A stretch of 61,899 nt of DNA from Planctomycetota bacterium (GTDB lineage: Bacteria > Planctomycetota > Phycisphaerae > Phycisphaerales > SM1A02). The notes beneath the pieces are model-generated. The model saw only the letters and a list, made by a program, of their open reading frames with translations, ran no database searches and was not told where the DNA came from. The stretch spans positions 1 through 61,899 of the forward strand of contig QWPT01000014.1 in assembly GCA_003671075.1 (NCBI GenBank), given 5' to 3'. Positions 5,964 to 44,245 of this stretch are shown piece after piece; position 1 is the first letter of the stretch, and each line of letters starts with the position of its first letter. A program made the position numbers and the translations under genes.

Positions 5964-6557
5964 GTGGGTTTCGCCGCATTTCTCCGCAACTTCATCGGTG
6001 CCGCGCCCCAAGCGGAAGTGGACTCCGCCCGCGCTGCGATGGCGGCGGCGGCGCAGGCGCAGAGCGCTGCTGTTGAAATGAAGGCGTTGGTCGCGCAGGT
6101 TCGCGACGGTCACATCAAGAGCGTCGAAGAGGTGCAGGCCGAACTCGCGCGACTCTCGCAGCGCGTTGAGTCGATGCCGGAAATGCGCGCGCAGTTAGAG
6201 AACTTCGTGCAGTCGCTCGGCCGAACCATGGTCGGAGTGGCCGACCGACTCGACACCGTTCATGATCGCATCGAGCGCGTCGAGCAGCAGGCGCGTTCGC
6301 AAACCGAGATCATCGCGCTTTCGCGTGCGGAGTTCGATCGGCAGGGGCGCGTGCTCGCCAACCTCGAGGTTCAGATGAAGTCGCTCGAGGACGCGATCAC
6401 TCGTCTCGTCGTCGTCGCCGATCGCTCGACAACCGTGCTGCAGGAGATCGACCAGCGCCGCGGCCGCGCCGATCACTCCGACCGCAACAATCGCATCATC
6501 ATCGGCATCCTGCTGCTTGTCCTCCTGCTCAACCTCGGGGTCGCCATCCTGCGATGA
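5964..6557 (+). CDS. Tail-anchored coiled-coil protein, unknown function
   Basis: This 197-residue protein starts GFAAFLRNFIGAAPQ. It continues as a long Ala/Gln/Glu-rich heptad region (about residues 20-160: VQAELARLSQRVESMPEMRAQ...). It ends in one hydrophobic helix, IIIGILLLVLLLNLGVAIL, with a single Arg after it. The layout predicts a cytoplasmic coiled coil held to the membrane by its C-terminus. Its last 4 bases overlap the start of the binding-protein gene (ATGA), so it is probably co-transcribed with the transporter cluster. I do not recognise a family. Confidence 0.7.
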   Translation: MGFAAFLRNFIGAAPQAEVDSARAAMAAAAQAQSAAVEMKALVAQVRDGHIKSVEEVQAELARLSQRVESMPEMRAQLENFVQSLGRTMVGVADRLDTVHDRIERVEQQARSQTEIIALSRAEFDRQGRVLANLEVQMKSLEDAITRLVVVADRSTTVLQEIDQRRGRADHSDRNNRIIIGILLLVLLLNLGVAILR

Positions 6558-7672
6558 GCGGCGATTCGCCCACCGATGGCCGCCCTGGTCCGCGTGGCAG
6601 CGGCCTGCGCTTGACTAGCCATGGGCGTCATGATCAAACTCATGATCAAACTCATGATTCGGATCATGATCCGAATCACGCGTCCGCCGACGATCAGCCC
6701 CTCGATGAACTCGAGCTCGCGCGTGCGCTTCAGCCTATGCCCGTCGATGCGCCGGTGAAACCCGCGCGCCGATTCGCCAGTCCGCTCCAGCAGTTGCTCG
6801 GGCTTTCGGTTTCGCTGGTTCTCATCTACATGATCTTCGGACGAGGCGCGGTGACGCCTCCTTCCACAACCGCCGTCGCGCCGATCACGCCGTCGCCGCG
6901 CGTGGCATCGACGAGCCCCGCGATCAGCGATTCGCTCATTGAACTCGGCCTTGGCGCTCATATCGTCGGACGCAGTCCTTACTGCACTGGCGTCGATGCG
7001 AGCGTTCCCGTTGTCGGCGATCTGCGCGACTTCGACGCTGAACGGCTCGCGCTTGTAAATCCCGATGTGCTCTTCGTGCAGCCGCCGCTGGCCGGAGTCG
7101 ATCCAGCGCTGCGCGAGTTTTGTGCGAAGAACTCAATTCGTCTTGTCGAGCGCAGGCTCGATGCGCTGCAAGACATCGCGCTGCTCGCCGATGACTTTCA
7201 GGAAGTCTTCGGCGCGCAACTCGCGCCCAAACTCGCCGACGCCCGCACATTTATCGCGACCAATCCAACCGCGCGCGCCGATGCTCCGCGCGTTCTCATC
7301 ATCGTTTCCGCCGATCCGTTCCTGGCCGTCGGCCGTGGCAACTACATCGATCAACTGTTGCAGCGATGCGGATTCATCAACGCCGTTGACGGCAGCGGTT
7401 GGGTTGAACTTTCGGTCGAGGCGATCATCGCGTTGCGTCCAGCGCGTATCGTCGGCATTGCGCAAACGCGCGCAACGGCGCTGGAAATCGAAGGTGTCAT
7501 CGAAGTGCTTCCTTGGCCCAACGGTCCGCCAGCGATCGCCTGCGACGCGATGCCCGAGTTGCTTTCGCCGAGTCTCGCCGCCATCGCCAAACGCGCTGCG
7601 TTCGCGCAGTTGCTCGGCTCGCCCGTTCCCACAACTGCCCCCGTTCCCGCAACTTCACCTGAGGCCCGCTGA
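6554..7672 (+). CDS. Membrane-anchored BtuF/FecB-like substrate-binding protein with His/Asp-rich N-tail
   Basis: This 372-residue protein has three parts. Residues about 1-75 form a cytoplasmic tail rich in His and Asp (HDQTHDQTHDSDHDPNH). One transmembrane helix follows (LLGLSVSLVLIYMIFG, about 85-100). A periplasmic binding domain comes last (SDSLIELGLGAHIVGRSPYC...VGDLRDFDAERLALVNPDVLFV), as in vitamin B12, heme and siderophore receptors. It overlaps both neighbours (ATGA; TGATG) and is followed by its permease and ATPase. The substrate is not certain; B12 is plausible because a cobalamin riboswitch lies 12 kb away. The His-rich tail on the cytoplasmic side is unusual and could bind metal. 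Confidence 0.8.
   Translation: MSGDSPTDGRPGPRGSGLRLTSHGRHDQTHDQTHDSDHDPNHASADDQPLDELELARALQPMPVDAPVKPARRFASPLQQLLGLSVSLVLIYMIFGRGAVTPPSTTAVAPITPSPRVASTSPAISDSLIELGLGAHIVGRSPYCTGVDASVPVVGDLRDFDAERLALVNPDVLFVQPPLAGVDPALREFCAKNSIRLVERRLDALQDIALLADDFQEVFGAQLAPKLADARTFIATNPTARADAPRVLIIVSADPFLAVGRGNYIDQLLQRCGFINAVDGSGWVELSVEAIIALRPARIVGIAQTRATALEIEGVIEVLPWPNGPPAIACDAMPELLSPSLAAIAKRAAFAQLLGSPVPTTAPVPATSPEAR
6655..6678. repeat. Perfect 24-bp palindrome next to a 12-base tandem repeat
   Basis: Positions 6655-6678 (TGATTCGGATCA then its reverse complement) are a perfect inverted repeat without a loop. It follows two copies of catgatcaaact (6629-6652). Both lie inside the His/Asp-rich coding stretch of the binding-protein gene and encode HDQT/HDSD. 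The palindrome could arise from codon choice, but it is long for chance. Confidence 0.6.
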
Positions 7673-8685
7673 TGCGCACGCGCGGATTCATCGTGCTTGG
7701 CGTCGCCATTGTGGTTTGCGCGTTGATGCGCAGCGCAATCGGTCCGGTCTCCGTCGACGGCGCCATCAAGCTCGCGTTGAGCATGCCCGCCGGCGAAATC
7801 CTTGCGTTTCGCCTGCAATCCGTGCTTTCCGCAGCCATGCTCGGCGCGGCGCTCGGACTCTCTGGACTAGCGCTGCAATCGCTCTTGCGTAATCCACTCG
7901 CGTCGCCATTCGTGCTCGGCGTTTCGAGCGGCGCCGGTTTCGGCGTTGCTGCAGTTCTCGCGGGCGCGTACTTGTTCGCACTTCCCGCCGTCACTTTCGG
8001 CGGTGAAGTCGGCGGCGCCATCGCGGGCGCGCTCATCACGCTCGCCATCGTTGCCTGGCTCGGTCGCGCGCGCGTGAGCGATGGGGGCGATCACGGTTCG
8101 GGCGCGAGCGATCCGACCGCGCTGGTACTTTCTGGCGTGATCGTCGGCGCGATCTTCAGCGCAGCCACCATGCTCCTCGAACAACTGGTTCCGCATGGAT
8201 TGCGCGGCGATCTTCTTTCCTGGATGGCGGGCCGGCTGCCCGAGATTCCTGCGCGCTCGGCGTTGGCAACTGTTTGCGTGAGCGTTGCCGTTGGATGGAT
8301 CGCGTTGGCCTCGCAAGCCGGCGCGCTCGATGTTGCGAGCCTTTCCGACGACGAGGCGCGCAGCAGTGGCGTTGACCTCGGCGCGTTGCGCAGAAAACTC
8401 TTTCTTGTGGGCGGCATACTGGCGGCGGTGGCGGTTGCCTACGCCGGACCAATCGGATTCATCGGGCTCATCGGTCCGCACATCGCGCGCAAACTCGTCG
8501 GTTCGCGTCACGGCGCGCTCGTGCCCGCATCGGCGCTCGCGGGGGCGGCGCTGTTGGTGAGCGCCGACGCGGTGCGCCAATGGATCGACCTCGGCACCGG
8601 CCGTCTTCCCGTCGGGGTCGTCACCGCGCTCGCTGGCGGCCCTGCGTTTCTCTGGCTTTTGCGGAGCGGCCGATGGAATCGCTGA
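7672..8685 (+). CDS. FecCD/BtuC-type ABC transporter permease
   Basis: This 337-residue, highly hydrophobic protein has about ten predicted membrane segments. It carries family marks such as LQSLLRNPLASPFVLGVSSGAG near residue 65-85, the ATPase-coupling region with EARSSGVDLGALRRKLFLVG, and the late IGFIGLIGPHIARKLVGS. It should form the inner-membrane channel that imports a chelated metal or cobalamin. Its ATG shares one base with the stop of the binding-protein gene, and its end overlaps the ATPase gene by 13 bases. Confidence 0.9.
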   Translation: MRTRGFIVLGVAIVVCALMRSAIGPVSVDGAIKLALSMPAGEILAFRLQSVLSAAMLGAALGLSGLALQSLLRNPLASPFVLGVSSGAGFGVAAVLAGAYLFALPAVTFGGEVGGAIAGALITLAIVAWLGRARVSDGGDHGSGASDPTALVLSGVIVGAIFSAATMLLEQLVPHGLRGDLLSWMAGRLPEIPARSALATVCVSVAVGWIALASQAGALDVASLSDDEARSSGVDLGALRRKLFLVGGILAAVAVAYAGPIGFIGLIGPHIARKLVGSRHGALVPASALAGAALLVSADAVRQWIDLGTGRLPVGVVTALAGGPAFLWLLRSGRWNR

Positions 8686-9557
8686 CCGCTCCTCCCGCAC
8701 GCGCGCCGCTCTTGATCGGTGAGAACCTCGGTCTTCGCTACGGCCTGCATGGCAGCTCTTACGGCGGTTCTCACGGCGGTTCTCGCGGCGGTTCTGCTGC
8801 ACAGGTGATCGACGCGGTCGTTGGTGTTTCGCTCACGCTCGCCGAGGGCGAGATCCTCGCCATTGTCGGCGCCAACGGTTGCGGCAAGAGCTCGCTGCTG
8901 CGCGTGCTTGCGTGTCTCGAAACCGCCCCGCGCGCGAGTGGTCGCGTTGAATATCGCGAGATTCGTACCTCTTCGCGCAGCGTCGCTCATCGTCTCGCGG
9001 CGGTGCGCGCGCTCGTTCCGCAGCGACCCGAGGCCACCGCCGCATTGACCGCGCGACAGGTGGTACGGCTCGGCCGTTTCAGCGTTGGACCCGATGAATC
9101 CGCAGTCGATCGTGCGCTCGGCGATGTTGGTTTGCTTGCCCGCGCCGAACTTCCGGTGAACACGCTTTCTGGTGGAGAACGCCAGCGCATCGCCATCGCC
9201 CGCGCTTTCGCGCAACTCGATCGAGGTGGAGTGGGGGGCGGCGTGCTGCTGCTCGACGAACCGTTCAGCGGCATCGACCCCGGCGAAGTCGCCCGCATCG
9301 TTACGGCACTGCGCATGCGCGCTCGAGCCGGCGCCGTCGTGCTGACTTCGCACGACCCCGGCCTCGCCCGCGCGATCGCCACCCACGCCATGGTGATGAA
9401 GGAAGGTCGCGCGATTGCCTTCGGAGCGGCGGGGGAGGTGCTCAGCGCGAAACTGCTGAGCGAGGCCTACCGATCGCCGATGCGAGAAGTGGGAGATTGG
9501 ATCGTGCCCGATCTCACCGCGTCGCAATCCACTGAGCGAGGTAGGATGCGTTCATGA
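8673..9557 (+). CDS. FecE/BtuD-type ABC transporter ATP-binding protein
   Basis: This 294-residue ATPase energises the upstream permease. Visible motifs are Walker A GANGCGKSS (about residues 66-74), signature LSGGERQR, Walker B VLLLDEPFSG and the switch His in LTSHDP. An unusual Gly/Ser insert (GSSYGGSHGGSRGGS, encoded by a 12-base tandem repeat at 8762-8797) sits between the first strand and Walker A. The ATG at 8673 lies inside the end of the permease gene. An in-frame ATG at 8580 would overlap it by over 100 bases and is less likely. Confidence 0.9.
   Translation: MESLTAPPARAPLLIGENLGLRYGLHGSSYGGSHGGSRGGSAAQVIDAVVGVSLTLAEGEILAIVGANGCGKSSLLRVLACLETAPRASGRVEYREIRTSSRSVAHRLAAVRALVPQRPEATAALTARQVVRLGRFSVGPDESAVDRALGDVGLLARAELPVNTLSGGERQRIAIARAFAQLDRGGVGGGVLLLDEPFSGIDPGEVARIVTALRMRARAGAVVLTSHDPGLARAIATHAMVMKEGRAIAFGAAGEVLSAKLLSEAYRSPMREVGDWIVPDLTASQSTERGRMRS
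9542..9547 (+). promoter_or_regulatory. -10 element TAGGAT, 6 bases before the 9554 start
   Basis: TAGGAT ends exactly 6 bases before the ATG at 9554, although that gene also overlaps the ATPase gene by 4 bases. It may therefore be read from the operon and from its own internal leaderless promoter. Confidence 0.45.
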
Positions 9558-19798: not shown

Positions 19799-20026
19799 TC
19801 ACTCACGACTTTTCGGCGGGCGCGCAAGCAGAACTTGGTGAAACACCGTCTCGCCCGTCTCGAGCATGCGCTCGAGATAGGGCCGGCACAAACCGCAATC
19901 TCCACCGCAACCAAATCGCTTGGTGACATCTTCAAGCAACACGCGCTCACCACCGATGGCGTGCTTGAGGTCCGCGAAAGTGCGGTCGAAGCAGGTGCAG
20001 CGGTCGATGTGAATTCCAGCTTTCAC
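19799..20026 (-). CDS. BFD-like [2Fe-2S]-binding protein
   Basis: This 75-residue protein has the cysteine pattern of bacterioferritin-associated-ferredoxin domains: CTC at residues 10-12 and CGGDCGLC about 30 residues later (RFGCGGDCGLCRPYLERML). It should bind a [2Fe-2S] cluster in the cytoplasm. The GTG start overlaps the pseudopilin stop (GTGA), so it is the last gene of the riboswitch-controlled operon. Its tail ends ARPPKSRE. A redox step in handling the imported ligand is only a guess. Confidence 0.75.
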   Translation of the reverse strand: MKAGIHIDRCTCFDRTFADLKHAIGGERVLLEDVTKRFGCGGDCGLCRPYLERMLETGETVFHQVLLARPPKSRE

Positions 20027-20823
20027 GAGCGAGGATCGTACGGTGCGTCGTCCGGGGCGAGAAATCCGTTGAGGGGAAATCCCGTCGTCGCGTCCAGAAG
20101 TTCATCGGTCGCATGCGCGCCTTCATGGCATGCGCAGGAACCAGACACATGCCCATCGAGGTAGCAGACGTGGGTGCAGCCTTGATGGCGAAACGCCTGT
20201 GTTCCTGCATAGACCGTGTAGAGATCGTTCTCGACGGCGTTGGCGGGCGCGCGCATGAACTTGTTCGCACCGCCGCGCCAACCTCCGTCGCCGAACATGG
20301 CGGTGGTGCTGGTTTGGCGCAATTGCCCGGATGCGAGGCCAAGTCGCGCCACCTTCCATCCGTCGATCCAACGGCCTTGTCCGTCGATCTCAGGAAATCT
20401 GCCTTCTGCACCGATGTAACTGGTGTTGTAGTTGTAGCCCGTGTACGGGTCGTTACCGAAAGTCGACGCGCCCTCGAACTCCGGGCATTGCTGCACTTGA
20501 TGAGGCCCGGAGATATACGCCCACAACGCGCCCGCGCGCACGCTGCCGTCGGGCTGCTGCTCGAAGTCCCACGCCTTGGTGACTAGGCCCGCGCCAGAGA
20601 TTTCATACAGAATCGCCGCAGGAAACCGATCGCGGTTTTGCAGCGCGTAGCTGGTTGCCGCAACACCGAGTTGGCGAAGATTCGACTGGCAACGACCCGC
20701 TCGAGCCGAGGTGCGCACGGTCGAGATCACAGGAAGCGTGATCGAAAGCAGCACCGCCAGGACGCCGATGACCGTCAGAACCTCGACGATGGTGAAGCCG
20801 CGCGCGTGAGGTGAACGGGTCAT
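20023..20823 (-). CDS. Type II pseudopilin-like protein with H-x9-DG motif
   Basis: This 266-residue protein starts with a prepilin signal: ARGFTIVEVLTVIGVLAVLL, where cleavage would fall after Gly. An ectodomain with SNLRQLGVAATSYALQNRDRFP follows. Near the end is a perfect H-x9-DG motif (HQGCTHVCYLDGHV), the mark of the planctomycete/verrucomicrobial prepilin-processing-associated family. The C-terminus is Cys/His-rich (SGSCACHEGAH). It overlaps both operon neighbours by 4 bases. It is probably membrane-held with the ectodomain outside. The role is unknown, but it is controlled by a cobalamin riboswitch. Confidence 0.82.
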   Translation of the reverse strand: MTRSPHARGFTIVEVLTVIGVLAVLLSITLPVISTVRTSARAGRCQSNLRQLGVAATSYALQNRDRFPAAILYEISGAGLVTKAWDFEQQPDGSVRAGALWAYISGPHQVQQCPEFEGASTFGNDPYTGYNYNTSYIGAEGRFPEIDGQGRWIDGWKVARLGLASGQLRQTSTTAMFGDGGWRGGANKFMRAPANAVENDLYTVYAGTQAFRHQGCTHVCYLDGHVSGSCACHEGAHATDELLDATTGFPLNGFLAPDDAPYDPRS

Positions 20824-21824
20824 GGAGTTGCGCCCATGGTCCACGCCGAAAGAATGAAGGCGAGATCGGTCGATCCCACCATTCCGCTTCCATCGAGATC
20901 CGCCGCTGGATCGCTGGTTCCCCAAGCCGACAGCAGCATCGCCAAATCGCCCGCGCCAACCACTCCGTTGCCATCGAGATCGGCTTGGGGAGGAAGCGCC
21001 GCGACATCAGAGAATGCGTCGACCTCCGGCGAAAATCCAGAGACCGTCGGCCCAGAGATGCGCACGAAGCGGATCGCCGACAGACCGAGCGCGCCGATGT
21101 CAATACCGACGCCGCCGCCCGAGCCGTCGTACTTGTCGAGCAAAGCTTCGTAGCCCAATCCCACCAGACTGCTGAAGGAGATCGTCGGATTCATCGGACG
21201 GAGAAAGTCCGTGGGCACCTGGCCAGCGGTGGTGGAGTAGGGCCCGACATCTTGGTAGCCGAGTGTGGGAAAGAGTCCGTCGGCGGCGAGTCCGCGCACC
21301 GTGGTCCACGCCACCGCGTCGGCGCTCACCGCAATGGTGCCGCCTTCGGTCGCCAGTCCCGCGACCACGCCGACGCCGAACGAACTATCGGTGAAGAACG
21401 CGTTGCCGAAGACGATGAGGTCGATGCCGAAGGGGTTGCGCGGATCGTCGGTGACATCGTGATCGAAGGTCACCACCAGCGATCCGCCGACGCCGAGCGA
21501 CACAATCTCGTCGGGCCGAAAGGCGGGCTGAAACGGCGTGACTGCTCCGGGAATCAAGCCCTCGCCGCTGAAGCGTTCGGGCGAGCCGAGGGTCGACGCG
21601 GCATTGGTGAAGCCAGTGGCCGCGCCAGTTCCTGCGACATACGAAATCACCGCCGAGGCAAAGGGGCTATCAGCGGAGGCCGATGAGCTCATTGCCAAGC
21701 ACGCTGCCAAATGGCCCGCGGATGCCGCGACCAAGAAGAAACGACTAGGACGCAAGCGGGACGGACACAAGCGGGACGGACAGAAGCGGGACTGACGCGA
21801 AATCGCGCGACGAATCGTGCGCAT
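20820..21824 (-). CDS. Secreted protein with C-terminal dockerin-like repeats, cobalamin-riboswitch controlled
   Basis: This 334-residue protein has an N-terminal signal (FFLVAASAGHLAACLAMSSS) preceded by a basic, repeated stretch (PSRLCPSRLRPSR). The body is a beta-rich domain with SLVVTFDHDV, NPFGIDLIVFGNAFF and IRFVRISGP. Two dockerin-type calcium loops end it (DLDGNGVVGAGDLAMLLSAW and DLDGSGMVGSTDLAFILSAW). It is the first gene after the riboswitch and overlaps the pseudopilin gene (ATGA). A surface-exposed B12-binding or capture role is an inference from the riboswitch. GGAGGA lies 11 bases before the ATG. Confidence 0.8.
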   Translation of the reverse strand: MRTIRRAISRQSRFCPSRLCPSRLRPSRFFLVAASAGHLAACLAMSSSASADSPFASAVISYVAGTGAATGFTNAASTLGSPERFSGEGLIPGAVTPFQPAFRPDEIVSLGVGGSLVVTFDHDVTDDPRNPFGIDLIVFGNAFFTDSSFGVGVVAGLATEGGTIAVSADAVAWTTVRGLAADGLFPTLGYQDVGPYSTTAGQVPTDFLRPMNPTISFSSLVGLGYEALLDKYDGSGGGVGIDIGALGLSAIRFVRISGPTVSGFSPEVDAFSDVAALPPQADLDGNGVVGAGDLAMLLSAWGTSDPAADLDGSGMVGSTDLAFILSAWTMGATP

Positions 21825-21919
21825 AGAACCTGCACTCCTCCGGGAGCTCGCGCCCGGTGGCTGAATGCGCTCCAAACCGGGAGCGCGCAGCGGCATCCGA
21901 CGGATGCCGATGGTGCTTA

Positions 21920-22230
21920 GGCAGGTTTTCCGACTTCAGGCTCCGCTGGTCCCGAGGGTCCAAACGGATCGATCGACGCCTTCCCAGCCGCACATGGCGA
22001 CCAGTGGCTGCCCGTCGAAACGGGCCATCTCTCGCGGGATGCGGGGCTTCGGCGGGCACGGCTTTCGTGAAGTTCTCGCGGACTTCTCGCGGAACTCTGG
22101 CGAAACTCACTTGAGGGTGCGCGTGCGGCGCGTCAACTTTGTATCCCACCTGTCACGGCGGCGCGACCACGGCGGAATTTCACCGCCTTCCCTCACTGCC
22201 TCGCAGCACATCGCGGGGCAGCGCCGAAGA
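21920..22230 (-). promoter_or_regulatory. Cobalamin (adenosylcobalamin-type) riboswitch
   Basis: Read on the minus strand, the conserved landmarks appear in order. A P2-like helix (CTGCC...GGCAG) precedes GAGGGAA. The core AAGGCGGTGAAATTCCGCC follows (22171-22189), then CGCCGCCGTGACAG (22150-22163; family CCCGCCACTGT). A long variable arm comes next. After it are GCCACTGG (22001-22008), CTGGGAAGGCG (21977-21987) and the 3-prime landmark GGAGCCTGAAG...AAAACCTGCC (21920-21944). It sits 96 bases upstream of the dockerin-like gene. Such elements normally switch the downstream operon off when cobalamin is abundant. Confidence 0.92.
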
Positions 22231-22257
22231 TACTCTTCGAGCGCCTAAGCAGCGGCG

Positions 22258-22263
22258 AGTATA
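22258..22263 (-). promoter_or_regulatory. -10 element of the riboswitch operon
   Basis: TATACT on the minus strand lies about 28 bases upstream of the riboswitch 5-prime end, which suits its promoter. No strong -35 is seen. Confidence 0.5.
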
Positions 22264-24714: not shown

Positions 24715-24720
24715 CTGCCC

Positions 24721-24885
24721 TGTTTGAGCGGTCGGCGCTGCGGCGCCTTACTCTGGTGGAGATACGGGCTTTGGTGGAGATATGGGCTCTGGTGGGGATG
24801 CGCCGTGTTTGAGCGGTCGGCGCTGCGGCGCCCTTTGGTGGAGATATGGGCTTTGGTGGGGATACGGGCTTTGGTGTGATGCAAC
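24721..24885 (+). repeat. Duplicated 85-base block containing short tandem units
   Basis: A 27-base block (tgtttgagcggtcggcgctg then cggcgcc) occurs at 24721 and again at 24806. It includes a GGCGC-TGCG-GCGCC hairpin. Each block is followed by two to three copies of an 18-base unit, ctttggtggagatatggg. The region lies in the 3-prime end of the HEAT-like transcript and is not coding. Confidence 0.85.
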
Positions 24886-24973: not shown

Positions 24974-25045
24974 AGCCACCCATGAGATTTGAACTCACGA
25001 CCTACGCTTTACGAAAGCGTTGCTCTACCGCTGAGCTAGGGTGGC
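24974..25045 (-). tRNA. tRNA-Thr (anticodon CGU)
   Basis: The minus strand folds as a cloverleaf. The acceptor GCCACCC pairs with GGGTGGC. The D-arm is GCTCAGCGGTAGAGC, the anticodon arm is ACGCT-TTCGTAA-AGCGT with anticodon CGT, and the T-arm contains GTTCAAATC. CCA is not encoded. A TATGAT -10 on the minus strand at 25056-25061 lies just upstream. Confidence 0.95.
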
Positions 25046-25376
25046 AGGGGCGGAAATCATACACCAAACCACGGTAGTCGTCGGCGATCTCGACGCGGAA
25101 ACACCGATGGGCAAGGAGTTGCGTCTCACAACCCGTCGAGTTGCTGCAGATGGAACTTGAGGGCAGATTTCCGCGGCGGACAGTTGGTTATCGCGGCAAA
25201 GACCCGAAAGCTGCGGAGAGATTTGGCGGACTCGCGGGTTGACTGCCGAAGAGAAGAGTGCGAATTGGAGGCGGGTTTCCTGCCCGTTTTCGAACAAAGC
25301 CGCCGTCAAGCCGTTCACTGTCTCAAGTCTGTCGTGGGTTCATGTTTCCCGCGACATCGTCATCTCTGGTGCCGCC
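25046..25376. other. 331-base intergenic stretch before metallopeptidase 1
   Basis: This stretch holds the tRNA-Thr -10 element at its left edge (25056-25061, minus strand). A TTGACT hexamer at 25240 may be a -35, but no matching -10 is clear. An open frame continues upstream of the metallopeptidase ATG to 25239 but has no signal-like or conserved sequence. No RNA fold was recognised. Confidence 0.4.
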
Positions 25377-27632
25377 ATGCTCCATTTCTCCGCAGCGATT
25401 TCCGCCCTGTTGGTTTCCTTGCTGGCGCCCGCCCCAGCGACATCGAGCGTCGTGGGGACGCAGCCCGTCGTTGGCAAGCCGATGCTGTCGGCGAGCCTGG
25501 TGCGCCGAAGCGCCGAAGTGAAGTCCATCCCGCGGGCGGTTCGTCCGTGGACATCGATCATCGAGGTTGATCGCGCTGGTTTGGAGAAGTTCGCCAACGC
25601 GGGCGGCGGCCTGCTCGCGGACTTTCCGCTGGGCCGTTCGCTCGACGCCACGCTTTCACTCGTTCCCATCGATCCCTTCGACGACGGCGCTGTTCTAGAA
25701 ATCGCCCGTCGCGGCCCCGTGCCATTCGAGCGGCGACCGCTGCGGGCCACCGGCGCGTTTCTTCGCGGCTCGGTCGCAGGCGTGGCCGACTCGCAGGCGT
25801 TTCTCGCCGTGACCGACGCGGGCACCTTCGGCTTCGTCCAATGGAACGGCCACACCTACATCATTTCCAGCGGGCCAAAGTCGCGCAGGCTGCCCACGGT
25901 GTCGTTTGATTTCACGGCGCTGCCCGCGGGCTTCATCGAAACACCCGCGTGGATCTGCTCCACCGTCGACGGCGATGTTCCCAAGGGCGGCAACGCGTTC
26001 GCCGAGGGCGGCGTTGCCGGCGTGCCTTGTCGCCAGGTGCGGGTTGCCTTCGACACCGACTTCGAATTCTTCCAGCTTTTCGGCAGCGACATTCCCGCCG
26101 CCACCAACTATGTCGCCACGCTGACTTCGGCGTTGAACACGATTTACAGCCGAGACCTCGGCGTTCGCGTCAGTGCCTCTTATCTCCGGCTTTGGCCTGA
26201 GGTCGACGATGTGTGGACATCGACGAGCACACCCGCACAGCTCGTGCAGTTTCGCAGCGTCTGGGCGACCCAAGGCGCGATCATTCGTGACACCGCGCAC
26301 ATGCTTTCGGGGCGAAGCCTCGGCGGCGGTATCGCCTACGCGCCCGGACTTTGCTCGAACTTCGGCTACGGAGTTTCGGCGAATCTCGCGGGGTTCTTCC
26401 CAACGCCGCTTGCCAACAACTCCTCGCAGAACTGGGACATCTTTGTGGTTGCTCATGAGCTCGGCCACAACTTCAGCATGCCGCACACCCACTCGATGAC
26501 GCCGCCCGTGGACGGTTGCGGCAACGCTCCGCCCGATTGCGCCGCGGCCGATCTCGATCAAGGCACGCTGATGTCTTACTGCCATCAATGTGCGGGCGGA
26601 CTCACCAACATTCGGCTCGAGTTTCATCCCGCGAGCATCGCGTTGGCGCTGAATTACCTGAACGGCCTCGGCTGCGACTTCACCGGCGCCACTCGTCCGC
26701 CCGTCGCCGCCGCCGACGCTTGCGATGCGTTTCTCGGGCTTCCCGCGCGCATCGATGTTCTTGCCAACGACGAGGAGTTCAACTGCGAATCCGTGACCAT
26801 CTCGTCGTTCAGCGCCACCAGCCTGCACGGCGCGACCATCTCGCGCAGCGTTGCCACGGGCAGCAACGGACGCGATGAACTGATCTACAGCATGCCGCTC
26901 GCGGGATTCGTTGGCGCGGATTCATTTACGTACACCGTGCGCGATGCGAGCGGATTGACGGCGACTGCCACCGTGGCAATCGCGGTCGCGTCGCTGCGCA
27001 CGCCCGAAAATCCCGTTGGAACCAGCAGCCAGATCGACGCTGCTTATTACGCGATCCTCAACGAAGTCGTGATTCCCGACTTCAGCCTGCGCACGCCCTT
27101 TGCCATTGGCACTGTGGGCGCGGTCAACTTCGCACTCACCTTCGGCAACTTCGCCACCAGCGACCGCAGCGATCTCGTTGGCGCGCGATTTTCAGGATGG
27201 CTCTCCGTTCCCACCAGTGGCAATTGGCGGCTCTACGCCGCCAGCGACGAAGGCTCGCGCATTTCCATCGGCGCCAGCGTGGTGGTGGACAACGACGGCG
27301 TACACGGCTACTCCGAGCGTTCGGGCGTGATTGCGCTTGCGGCGGGAATGCACGCGATCACCATCGACTACTTCGAACGCACGGGCAGCGCAGGTCTGGT
27401 CGCAAGCTGGCAGGGGCCCGATGGCGTGAAGCAGGCCATTCCTTCCACGCAGTACTTTCGCGGTGGATCGAACACGCCCGCTGATCTCACCAACGACGGC
27501 GTGGTCAATGCGCAAGATATGGCGGTGCTGCTTTCCAATTGGGGACAGCTCAACTCGCCCTACGACCTGTCCGGCGACGGCTTGATCGGCGGAGCGGATC
27601 TCACCATGGTCCTCTTTGCATGGACCGAGTGA
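25377..27632 (+). CDS. Secreted reprolysin-type zinc metallopeptidase 1 with PA14 and dockerin-like domains
   Basis: This 751-residue protein has a signal peptide (LHFSAAISALLVSLLAPAPA), a pro-region, and a metzincin catalytic domain. The zinc motif is HELGHNFSMPH (His360, Glu361, His364, His370), with Met-turn TLMSYC. A cadherin/Ig-like strand-rich part (RIDVLANDEEF..., GADSFTYTVRD) follows, then a PA14-like domain (FSGWLSVPTSGNWRLYAASDEGSRISI). Two dockerin-like loops end it (DLTNDGVVNAQDMAVLLSNW, DLSGDGLIGGADLTMVLFAW). It is the paralogue of the next gene and probably acts outside the cell. The ATG was chosen to give the signal peptide. Confidence 0.88.
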   Translation: MLHFSAAISALLVSLLAPAPATSSVVGTQPVVGKPMLSASLVRRSAEVKSIPRAVRPWTSIIEVDRAGLEKFANAGGGLLADFPLGRSLDATLSLVPIDPFDDGAVLEIARRGPVPFERRPLRATGAFLRGSVAGVADSQAFLAVTDAGTFGFVQWNGHTYIISSGPKSRRLPTVSFDFTALPAGFIETPAWICSTVDGDVPKGGNAFAEGGVAGVPCRQVRVAFDTDFEFFQLFGSDIPAATNYVATLTSALNTIYSRDLGVRVSASYLRLWPEVDDVWTSTSTPAQLVQFRSVWATQGAIIRDTAHMLSGRSLGGGIAYAPGLCSNFGYGVSANLAGFFPTPLANNSSQNWDIFVVAHELGHNFSMPHTHSMTPPVDGCGNAPPDCAAADLDQGTLMSYCHQCAGGLTNIRLEFHPASIALALNYLNGLGCDFTGATRPPVAAADACDAFLGLPARIDVLANDEEFNCESVTISSFSATSLHGATISRSVATGSNGRDELIYSMPLAGFVGADSFTYTVRDASGLTATATVAIAVASLRTPENPVGTSSQIDAAYYAILNEVVIPDFSLRTPFAIGTVGAVNFALTFGNFATSDRSDLVGARFSGWLSVPTSGNWRLYAASDEGSRISIGASVVVDNDGVHGYSERSGVIALAAGMHAITIDYFERTGSAGLVASWQGPDGVKQAIPSTQYFRGGSNTPADLTNDGVVNAQDMAVLLSNWGQLNSPYDLSGDGLIGGADLTMVLFAWTE

Positions 27633-43084: not shown

Positions 43085-44089
43085 TCAGCCTCCGCCGAAC
43101 ACGCGCACATCGTCGTACTCGCTGACGACGTACGGTCCGGTCTGGTTGGCGGTGCTCACGATGTCGGTCTGCGCGAGGCCAGGAGAGCCGCGGCCGTCGA
43201 ACTTCGAGAAGTAGATGCCATCGCGGCCAGCGGAGATCGCGACCACTGCGCCACGCGGTGCGCCTTGCATCGGCTGCTCCGGCTTTCCGTAGCTCACATT
43301 TCGGATGATCTGCGCGAGCGTCGCGTTCTGATTCGCGGGAGCCGATGCGCGCAGGATGCTGTCGGCCTGCGACGCGCCGAGATCGCCGAGCGCGTTTGAA
43401 TTGAGGTACGGCTTGATGCCCTGGAAGGCGAACATGCAGTCGTTCATGACATCGCCGGTCTGCGCGCCCATCACCAAGTTCGTCGCCGCTGGACGCAGCT
43501 GACGCAGATAGAGCACGGGCTGACCCCACGAATCAACGAGGTCGGGAATGCGCAGCGGATCCGACGCATACGGATCTTCCGATGGCACCGCTGTCAGGTT
43601 CTGTCCTTGCGCGGCGATCAGGTCGCTGGCCTTGGGCGAGAAGAACGACTTGTACTGCACGCCGCGCACGCGCGGACCTTCGCCGACCTTGGCAGCATTC
43701 ACCTTGATCTTGAAGGTGTTGGTTCCGGAGCCGAAGGTGAGTTCAGTCCAGCTCGAGTAGGGCGCAACGCCGTAGCTCGGATCGTCCTCAGGAATCGCGC
43801 CGCCGCAAAGTTGCAGGATCGCGTTCTCCATCGAAGTGAGCTGCGGATTTGCCGTCGACGCCAGAATGGCCTCGGGCACGATGCCGGGATAGAAACCGAA
43901 CTGCTGCTGGAAGGTCTCGCAGGCCTTGATGAACTCCTGAAGGAGGCTCTCGGTTTGCGTCTTGCGGGCGCGCTCCTGCACTCGGCTGAGCGCGGGAAGC
44001 AGGATCCCGATGAGCAGGGCGATGATGCCGATGACGACGAGCATCTCGGTGAGCGTGAAGGCGCGGCGGGCGGTCGGCTGTTCAGTCAT
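43085..44089 (-). CDS. Type II secretion/pilin-like pseudopilin
   Basis: This 334-residue protein has a classic prepilin start: ARRAFTLTEMLVVIGIIALLIGILLPALSRVQERARKTQ, with cleavage expected before Phe and Glu at position +5. The ectodomain contains TFQQQFGFYPGIVPEAI, a DPLRIPDLVDSWGQPVLYL block as in type II secretion GspG/GspH-like proteins, and AVVAISAGRDGIYFSKF near the end. It lacks the H-x9-DG motif of the 20023 gene. It stands alone between terminators, so assembly partners are elsewhere. Confidence 0.85.
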   Translation of the reverse strand: MTEQPTARRAFTLTEMLVVIGIIALLIGILLPALSRVQERARKTQTESLLQEFIKACETFQQQFGFYPGIVPEAILASTANPQLTSMENAILQLCGGAIPEDDPSYGVAPYSSWTELTFGSGTNTFKIKVNAAKVGEGPRVRGVQYKSFFSPKASDLIAAQGQNLTAVPSEDPYASDPLRIPDLVDSWGQPVLYLRQLRPAATNLVMGAQTGDVMNDCMFAFQGIKPYLNSNALGDLGASQADSILRASAPANQNATLAQIIRNVSYGKPEQPMQGAPRGAVVAISAGRDGIYFSKFDGRGSPGLAQTDIVSTANQTGPYVVSEYDDVRVFGGG

Positions 44090-44245
44090 GGTTTGGATCC
44101 TACCTTGCGGAGCGCGGTCGCGAACCGAGCGGCCGTTCGTCGACATGATTACGCATTCGGGTCGAGCGCGTACGCGGTTCGAGGCGACTCTGGACTTTGG
44201 ACTCGTTGGTTTGCTCGGGTTGTCCGCTCCGCTGAGCCGAGCGAT

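Follow-up and report, generated by a model that had tools for sequence, protein, structure and literature searches.

A cobalamin riboswitch-controlled operon of a planctomycete encodes a BtuH-like protein next to a type IV pilin-like protein and probably serves the surface capture of vitamin B12

The closest described counterparts of the operon presented here are the surface lipoproteins BtuH and BtuGH (BtuG1) of Bacteroides (PMC8941943; PDB 7biz and 8blw). BtuH2 binds B12 through its C-terminal domain (PMC8941943). The proteins of the DUF4465 (BtuJ) family have also been shown to bind B12 (PMC12751083, PMC13398666). The family was reported to be linked to TonB receptors, in a paper whose text makes no mention of planctomycetes, PEP-CTERM or pilins. 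A literature search, with subscription journals mostly outside its coverage, returned nothing that connects cobalamin riboswitches with pilins or planctomycetes in the way described below, and nothing relevant on pilins and B12 uptake or on H-X9-DG. The planctomycete operon resembles the Bacteroides systems in that a riboswitch precedes a secreted protein with a BtuH2-related main domain, and differs from them in its dockerin-like or PEP-CTERM tail, in its type IV pilin, and in the lack of BtuB. The operon would work in the manner of surface B12 capture by BtuH, BtuG and BtuJ, and is set apart by the absence of BtuB and the constant presence of a pilin.

The window, i.e., the whole analysed stretch of 61,899 nucleotides (contig QWPT01000014.1, assembly GCA_003671075.1), carries the operon on its minus strand. 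A first-pass annotation of this DNA had read a cobalamin riboswitch ahead of three genes coupled by ATGA and GTGA overlaps, and this was borne out by the covariance match to RF00174 at 22243–21903 (−) and by the frames 21824–20820, 20823–20023 and 20026–19799 (−), of which the first two are joined by ATGA, and the second and third by GTGA. The pilin-like and BFD-type identities that it had proposed also hold. The gene 2 product passes the N-terminal methylation motif models PF07963 and TIGR02532, the gene 3 product passes Fer2_BFD, and the H-x9-DG motif was seen by eye. The operon consists of the following features:

21903–22243, minus strand: cobalamin riboswitch aptamer RF00174 (cmscan, 32.8 bits; gathering score, 31.5), with no second copy detected in the genome
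20820–21824, minus strand: gene 1, secreted BtuH-like protein, 334 aa (358 aa from 21896), with a conserved ATG and BtuH2 matches
20023–20823, minus strand: gene 2, type IV pilin-like protein with an H-x9-DG motif (score/cut-off: PF07963, 21.6/21.2; TIGR02532, 20.3/16.3)
19799–20026, minus strand: gene 3, BFD-like [2Fe-2S] protein, 75 aa (PF04324, 32.0 versus a cut-off of 26)

The covariance check proposed in the first-pass annotation came out just above the cut-off: the match covers the whole 189-position model, exceeds the gathering score by 1.3 bits and has an E-value of 1.4 × 10−4 for the window. The aptamer contains a long insertion, which accounts for the weak score, and a poor P1 stem. 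The landmarks AGCCACTGGT (22009–22000, −) and AACCTGCC (21927–21920, −) lie where they had been read before. No other RF00174 copy was detected in this 3.35 Mb genome (98% complete).

Cobalamin riboswitches control translation by an L5–L13 kissing loop, the gene being off when B12 is present. The elements that could form such an expression platform were located downstream of, and within, the aptamer:

22160–22166, minus strand: aptamer loop TCGCGCC, candidate L5, a perfect complement of GGCGCGA at 21854–21848
21840–21857, minus strand: hairpin CCGGG-CGCGAGCT-CCCGG with an L13-type loop, conserved in the genus, its 3' arm running into the ribosome-binding site
21837–21841, minus strand: GGAGG ribosome-binding site of gene 1, partly within the hairpin

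The seven-base TCGCGCC/GGCGCGA pairing, judged by complementarity, is kept in most of the congeners checked, and in two congeners the hairpin stem reads CTGGG/CCCAG instead of CCGGG/CCCGG. The platform is consistent with L5–L13 kissing-loop control of translation, in which B12 would act as the off signal. The ATG at 21824, located after GGAGG, is the likely start of gene 1 because it is conserved among congeners, and the start of the open reading frame at 21896 lies too far upstream. Another pairing just before the ATG (AACCTGC/GCAGGTT), suggested by RNA folding of 21930–21800, is absent in congeners and was not used. With a score just above gathering, the riboswitch might be regarded as degenerate in the window organism, and the function of the operon there as unrelated to B12. 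Such degeneration is highly improbable, since the conserved core, the AGCCACTG element, the 3' AACCTGCC end and the L5–L13 pairing are all kept, congeners carry RF00174 copies of up to 68.5 bits upstream of the same genes, and gene 1 is intact and BtuH-like.

The gene neighbourhood was counted at 58 RF00174 sites in relatives, taking genes on the same strand, downstream and within 6 kb. The pilin was found at 52 of these sites, a gene 1 homologue at 48, and the [2Fe-2S] gene at 21; the counts are descriptive because these loci contributed to the profiles. The single window pilin as a query already recovered nearly all of the pilin sites, and in 533 kb matches to the module pilin hardly occur outside the modules. 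Of the six sites without a pilin, three are contig ends, two are second riboswitches, and one belongs to a genome (G066) that is described below. The gene order expected in the first-pass annotation is therefore conserved behind riboswitches in relatives as regards the pair of BtuH-like protein and pilin, whereas the [2Fe-2S] protein of the proposed trio is optional. The most constant partner in the operon is the pilin, and the binder beside it varies (DUF4465, BtuH-like, beta-propellers and unknowns). RF00174 is also present at the majority of the far loci found by gene 1, one of them in an Armatimonadota genome at 117.8 bits. The operon was also seen, at 75% identity to the window, on a contig labelled Candidatus Kuenenia stuttgartiensis (L002), which was probably mis-binned and would come from a relative of the window organism.

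Two regions can be distinguished in the gene 1 product:

20997–21668, minus strand: BtuH-like domain of the B12-binding type (7biz; PDB sequence E-value, 1.2 × 10−4; fold Z, 9.5)
20838–20984, minus strand: dockerin-like tail (PF00404, 20.2 of 22.9; NF041540, 25 of 29)

Pfam and NCBIfam searches of gene 1 gave nothing beyond this sub-threshold tail, which corresponds to the last ~50 residues only and is called no more than dockerin-like because both scores are below the curated cut-offs of Pfam and NCBIfam. The core of the protein forms a domain with strong conservation. A profile built from 16 cores, which replaced an earlier PDB profile search dominated by EF-hand/dockerin matches, was compared with all of the PDB sequences at E-values up to 10. 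Exactly one match was obtained, namely 7biz, BtuH2 of B. thetaiotaomicron, and it rests on the N-terminal half; no carbohydrate-binding module was found among the PDB sequence matches at this threshold. The AlphaFold2 model of gene 1 (six sequences) is of low confidence and has to be read with care because of its mean pLDDT of 56.5. Its top fold match is again 7biz (residues 316–593; Z, 9.5; 139 aligned residues; 29% identity), with a Z not far over the level that is common by chance, and BtuG1 (8blw, residues 391–660) is matched with a Z of 9.0. The remaining fold matches, dockerins matching the tail aside, have Z values of 7.5 or less and 6–15% identity. The residue numbering of BtuH2 was taken as chain position + 100, because the reported Gln333 and Asn399 then get the right letters. 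With this numbering, the phosphate contact Asn399 appears to coincide with the Asn that is invariant in the GNAF motif of the gene 1 family; it is the only contact on an invariant residue, Gln333 is not retained in gene 1 of the window, and four contacts are unplaced.

Judged by sequence homology and the modelled fold, the main domain of gene 1 is related to the B12-binding domain of BtuH2, and the protein belongs with BtuH. The name "dockerin-like protein" used in the first-pass annotation thus fits the tail and not the main domain, and its statement that none of the three products belongs to a known B12 class has to be withdrawn for gene 1. The fold search also matched carbohydrate-binding CBM32/discoidin-type domains, and type IV pilins commonly serve adhesion, so that the operon could be imagined as an attachment response, in which low B12 would lead a pilin adhesin and a surface protein to bind B12 producers or particles, with uptake by other means. 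We regard this as improbable, since the PDB sequence match of gene 1 is BtuH2 rather than a carbohydrate-binding module, and in the class sample described below the operon also contains B12 binders of the DUF4465 family.

LAAC, a candidate lipoprotein anchor motif, is present in the signal peptide of gene 1, as seen by eye, and is not found in the relatives looked at; the gene 1 tails of relatives are either dockerin-like or of the PEP-CTERM type. A 15-base tandem repeat (21748–21796; 3.3 copies) codes for CPSRL-type repeats in the n-region of the signal peptide. In some relatives, a beta-propeller protein, of the PQQ type or another, is inserted in the operon, and in several of them it lies beside gene 1, similar to Bacteroides, where BtuG domains adjoin BtuH; compared with the PDB, these beta-propeller neighbours gave no BtuG match by sequence. 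A PEP-CTERM beta-propeller-like family adjoins gene 1 at loci L136 (6022–7098), L146, L084, L086, L072, L075 and L006 (7326–8294).

PF14717 (DUF4465/BtuJ) has no match in the genome of the window organism and is present in the operons of relatives. As an independent test, loci were picked by DUF4465 alone in the class sample, where 25 genomes have this family. These loci showed a riboswitch in 16 of 20 cases, a pilin within short flanks in 21 of 25, and a gene 1 relative in 23 of 25. Together with the 58-site counts, this rules out chance co-occurrence of the operon parts. Gene 1 and DUF4465 at first seemed to exclude each other (Fisher p, 1.6 × 10−4), but this was an artefact of the single-sequence search, which is weaker than the profile; the latter places both in 23 of the 25 loci. 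The operon is thus like the DUF4465/BtuJ systems in that the family shares its riboswitch, gene 1 relatives and pilin in most of these genomes, and is unlike them in that the window genome lacks DUF4465 and that the published family is linked to TonB receptors. At one locus (L093, 3201–5357; genome G072), a single open frame combines DUF4465 with a gene 1-like domain and a dockerin-like part; it also has a segment resembling PEP-CTERM and a second stretch that looks like a signal, and represents either a fusion or a missed stop.

The structure model of gene 2 (pLDDT, 37.7) was unusable, and the pilin would be tied to B12 by its conserved neighbourhood only. A PilT-type ATPase and a secretin are encoded in all 61 genomes. 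Elsewhere in the window, 43085–44146 (−) encodes another pilin-like protein with an N-terminal methylation motif, which has a weak match to the module pilin profile (8.9 × 10−21).

CbiC, the single marker from which de novo B12 synthesis was judged, is absent from all of the 61 genomes, and the control genomes were positive. The window planctomycete probably cannot make B12. The B12 domain of methionine synthase (MetH), which is B12-dependent, is present in 55 of the 61 genomes, PduO adenosyltransferase in 57, and a FecCD permease in 60. The best FecCD copy of the window organism itself is located in the window, in a separate operon (6554–9557, +) about 12 kb from the riboswitch operon, which resembles BtuF/BtuC/BtuD and whose substrate assignment is putative:

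6554–7672, plus strand: BtuF-like periplasmic binding protein, a possible partner (NF038402 TroA_like, 26 of 30 bits)
7672–8685, plus strand: FecCD/BtuC-type permease, a possible partner (PF01032, E-value 2.5 × 10−63; best NCBIfam model BtuC, 151 of 334 bits)
8580–9557, plus strand: ABC ATPase of the same type, a possible partner (heme/BtuD-type ATPase models, below cut-offs)

Several congeners also have a FecCD gene on the riboswitch contig, at a distance of ~13–16 kb from the riboswitch.

TonB receptors were found in 37 of the 61 genomes and in 30 of the 48 of good quality, leaving 18 good-quality relatives with no TonB receptor whatever. The genome of the window organism encodes one TonB receptor (best model, TIGR01782), for which no B12-type model is listed, and none is encoded in the window operon. 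Compared with BtuB–TonB transport, the riboswitch position is the same; in G066, a receptor with TonB-B12 as the best model (270 of 599.7 bits) stands behind the riboswitch, and no pilin operon is found there. The operon differs from this kind of transport in the lack of a TonB receptor, both in the window operon and throughout those 18 relatives. The set of BtuH-like protein and pilin behind the riboswitch is found repeatedly within the class, and many of the genomes that carry it have no outer-membrane B12 transporter of the usual kind.

The aptamer, a gene order that is conserved in relatives, and the relationship between gene 1 and BtuH2 are established computationally, and the operon probably serves surface B12 capture under a B12-responsive off-switch and stands in for BtuB. 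The riboswitch-controlled surface B12-acquisition operon envisaged in the first-pass annotation is thus supported by the covariance match and the conserved gene order. When B12 is scarce, the L5–L13 contact would be lost, the ribosome-binding site would become free and the three coupled genes would be translated. The gene 1 protein would be secreted, held at the surface by its tail (dockerin-like here, PEP-CTERM in many relatives) and capture cobamides. The pilin may join a type IV pilus or pseudopilus and carry either the binder or what it has bound over the outer membrane, which is the task of BtuB elsewhere, and a BtuF/BtuCD-type transporter, such as the one 12 kb away, would complete the uptake. 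In the weakest step of this scheme, the [2Fe-2S] protein may give electrons for cytoplasmic cobalt reduction before adenosylation.

How the captured vitamin would cross the outer membrane can be pictured in two ways. We tentatively propose a TonB-independent uptake, in which a retractable fibre of the type IV pilus type with a dedicated pilin would carry cobamide-loaded BtuH/BtuJ-type binders through a secretin to the periplasm, taking the place of BtuB across a large share of planctomycetes. DNA uptake by type IV pili uses ComP-type minor pilins. The planctomycete system would be similar in having a ligand binder borne or moved by a pilin, and PilT-type ATPases and secretins are present; it would differ in that the ligand is a cobamide, and both retraction and ligand contact are putative here. 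It is also possible, if somewhat doubtful, that the pilin is a pseudopilin and a secretion aid which helps to export or display the B12-capturing BtuH-like protein, with entry of B12 itself through a porin or a transporter that has escaped recognition. Pseudopilins are general components of type II secretion, surface-sorting tails are carried by the binders, and the ubiquity of secretins in these genomes agrees with such a role. Against it, the pilin stays constant while the binder changes, and no dedicated pilin is known to be needed by the rest of the dockerin and PEP-CTERM proteins that these genomes encode.

Under the proposed pilin-mediated uptake, a pilin of unknown role gains a likely ligand, and a testable answer is offered to the question of how so large a vitamin is acquired by B12-dependent Gram-negative bacteria that have no TonB receptor. 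With the gene 1 family, the range of BtuH-type capture of B12 would grow beyond Bacteroidetes and a few Firmicutes to include planctomycetes and one Armatimonadota genome.

Small secreted proteins with no Pfam function were seen behind cobalamin riboswitches at loci L133 (6672–7346), L073 (5422–6012) and L101 (3342–4013), those of L133 and L073 behind the second riboswitch of their genomes; it is possible that they are further B12 binders. In the window itself, an 82-base tandem repeat (24717–24876; 1.9 copies, 88% matches) adjoins a tRNA gene at 25045–24974, and 25239–27632 (+) encodes a large secreted protein with the metalloprotease motif HELGHNFSMPHTHS and a dockerin-like tail.
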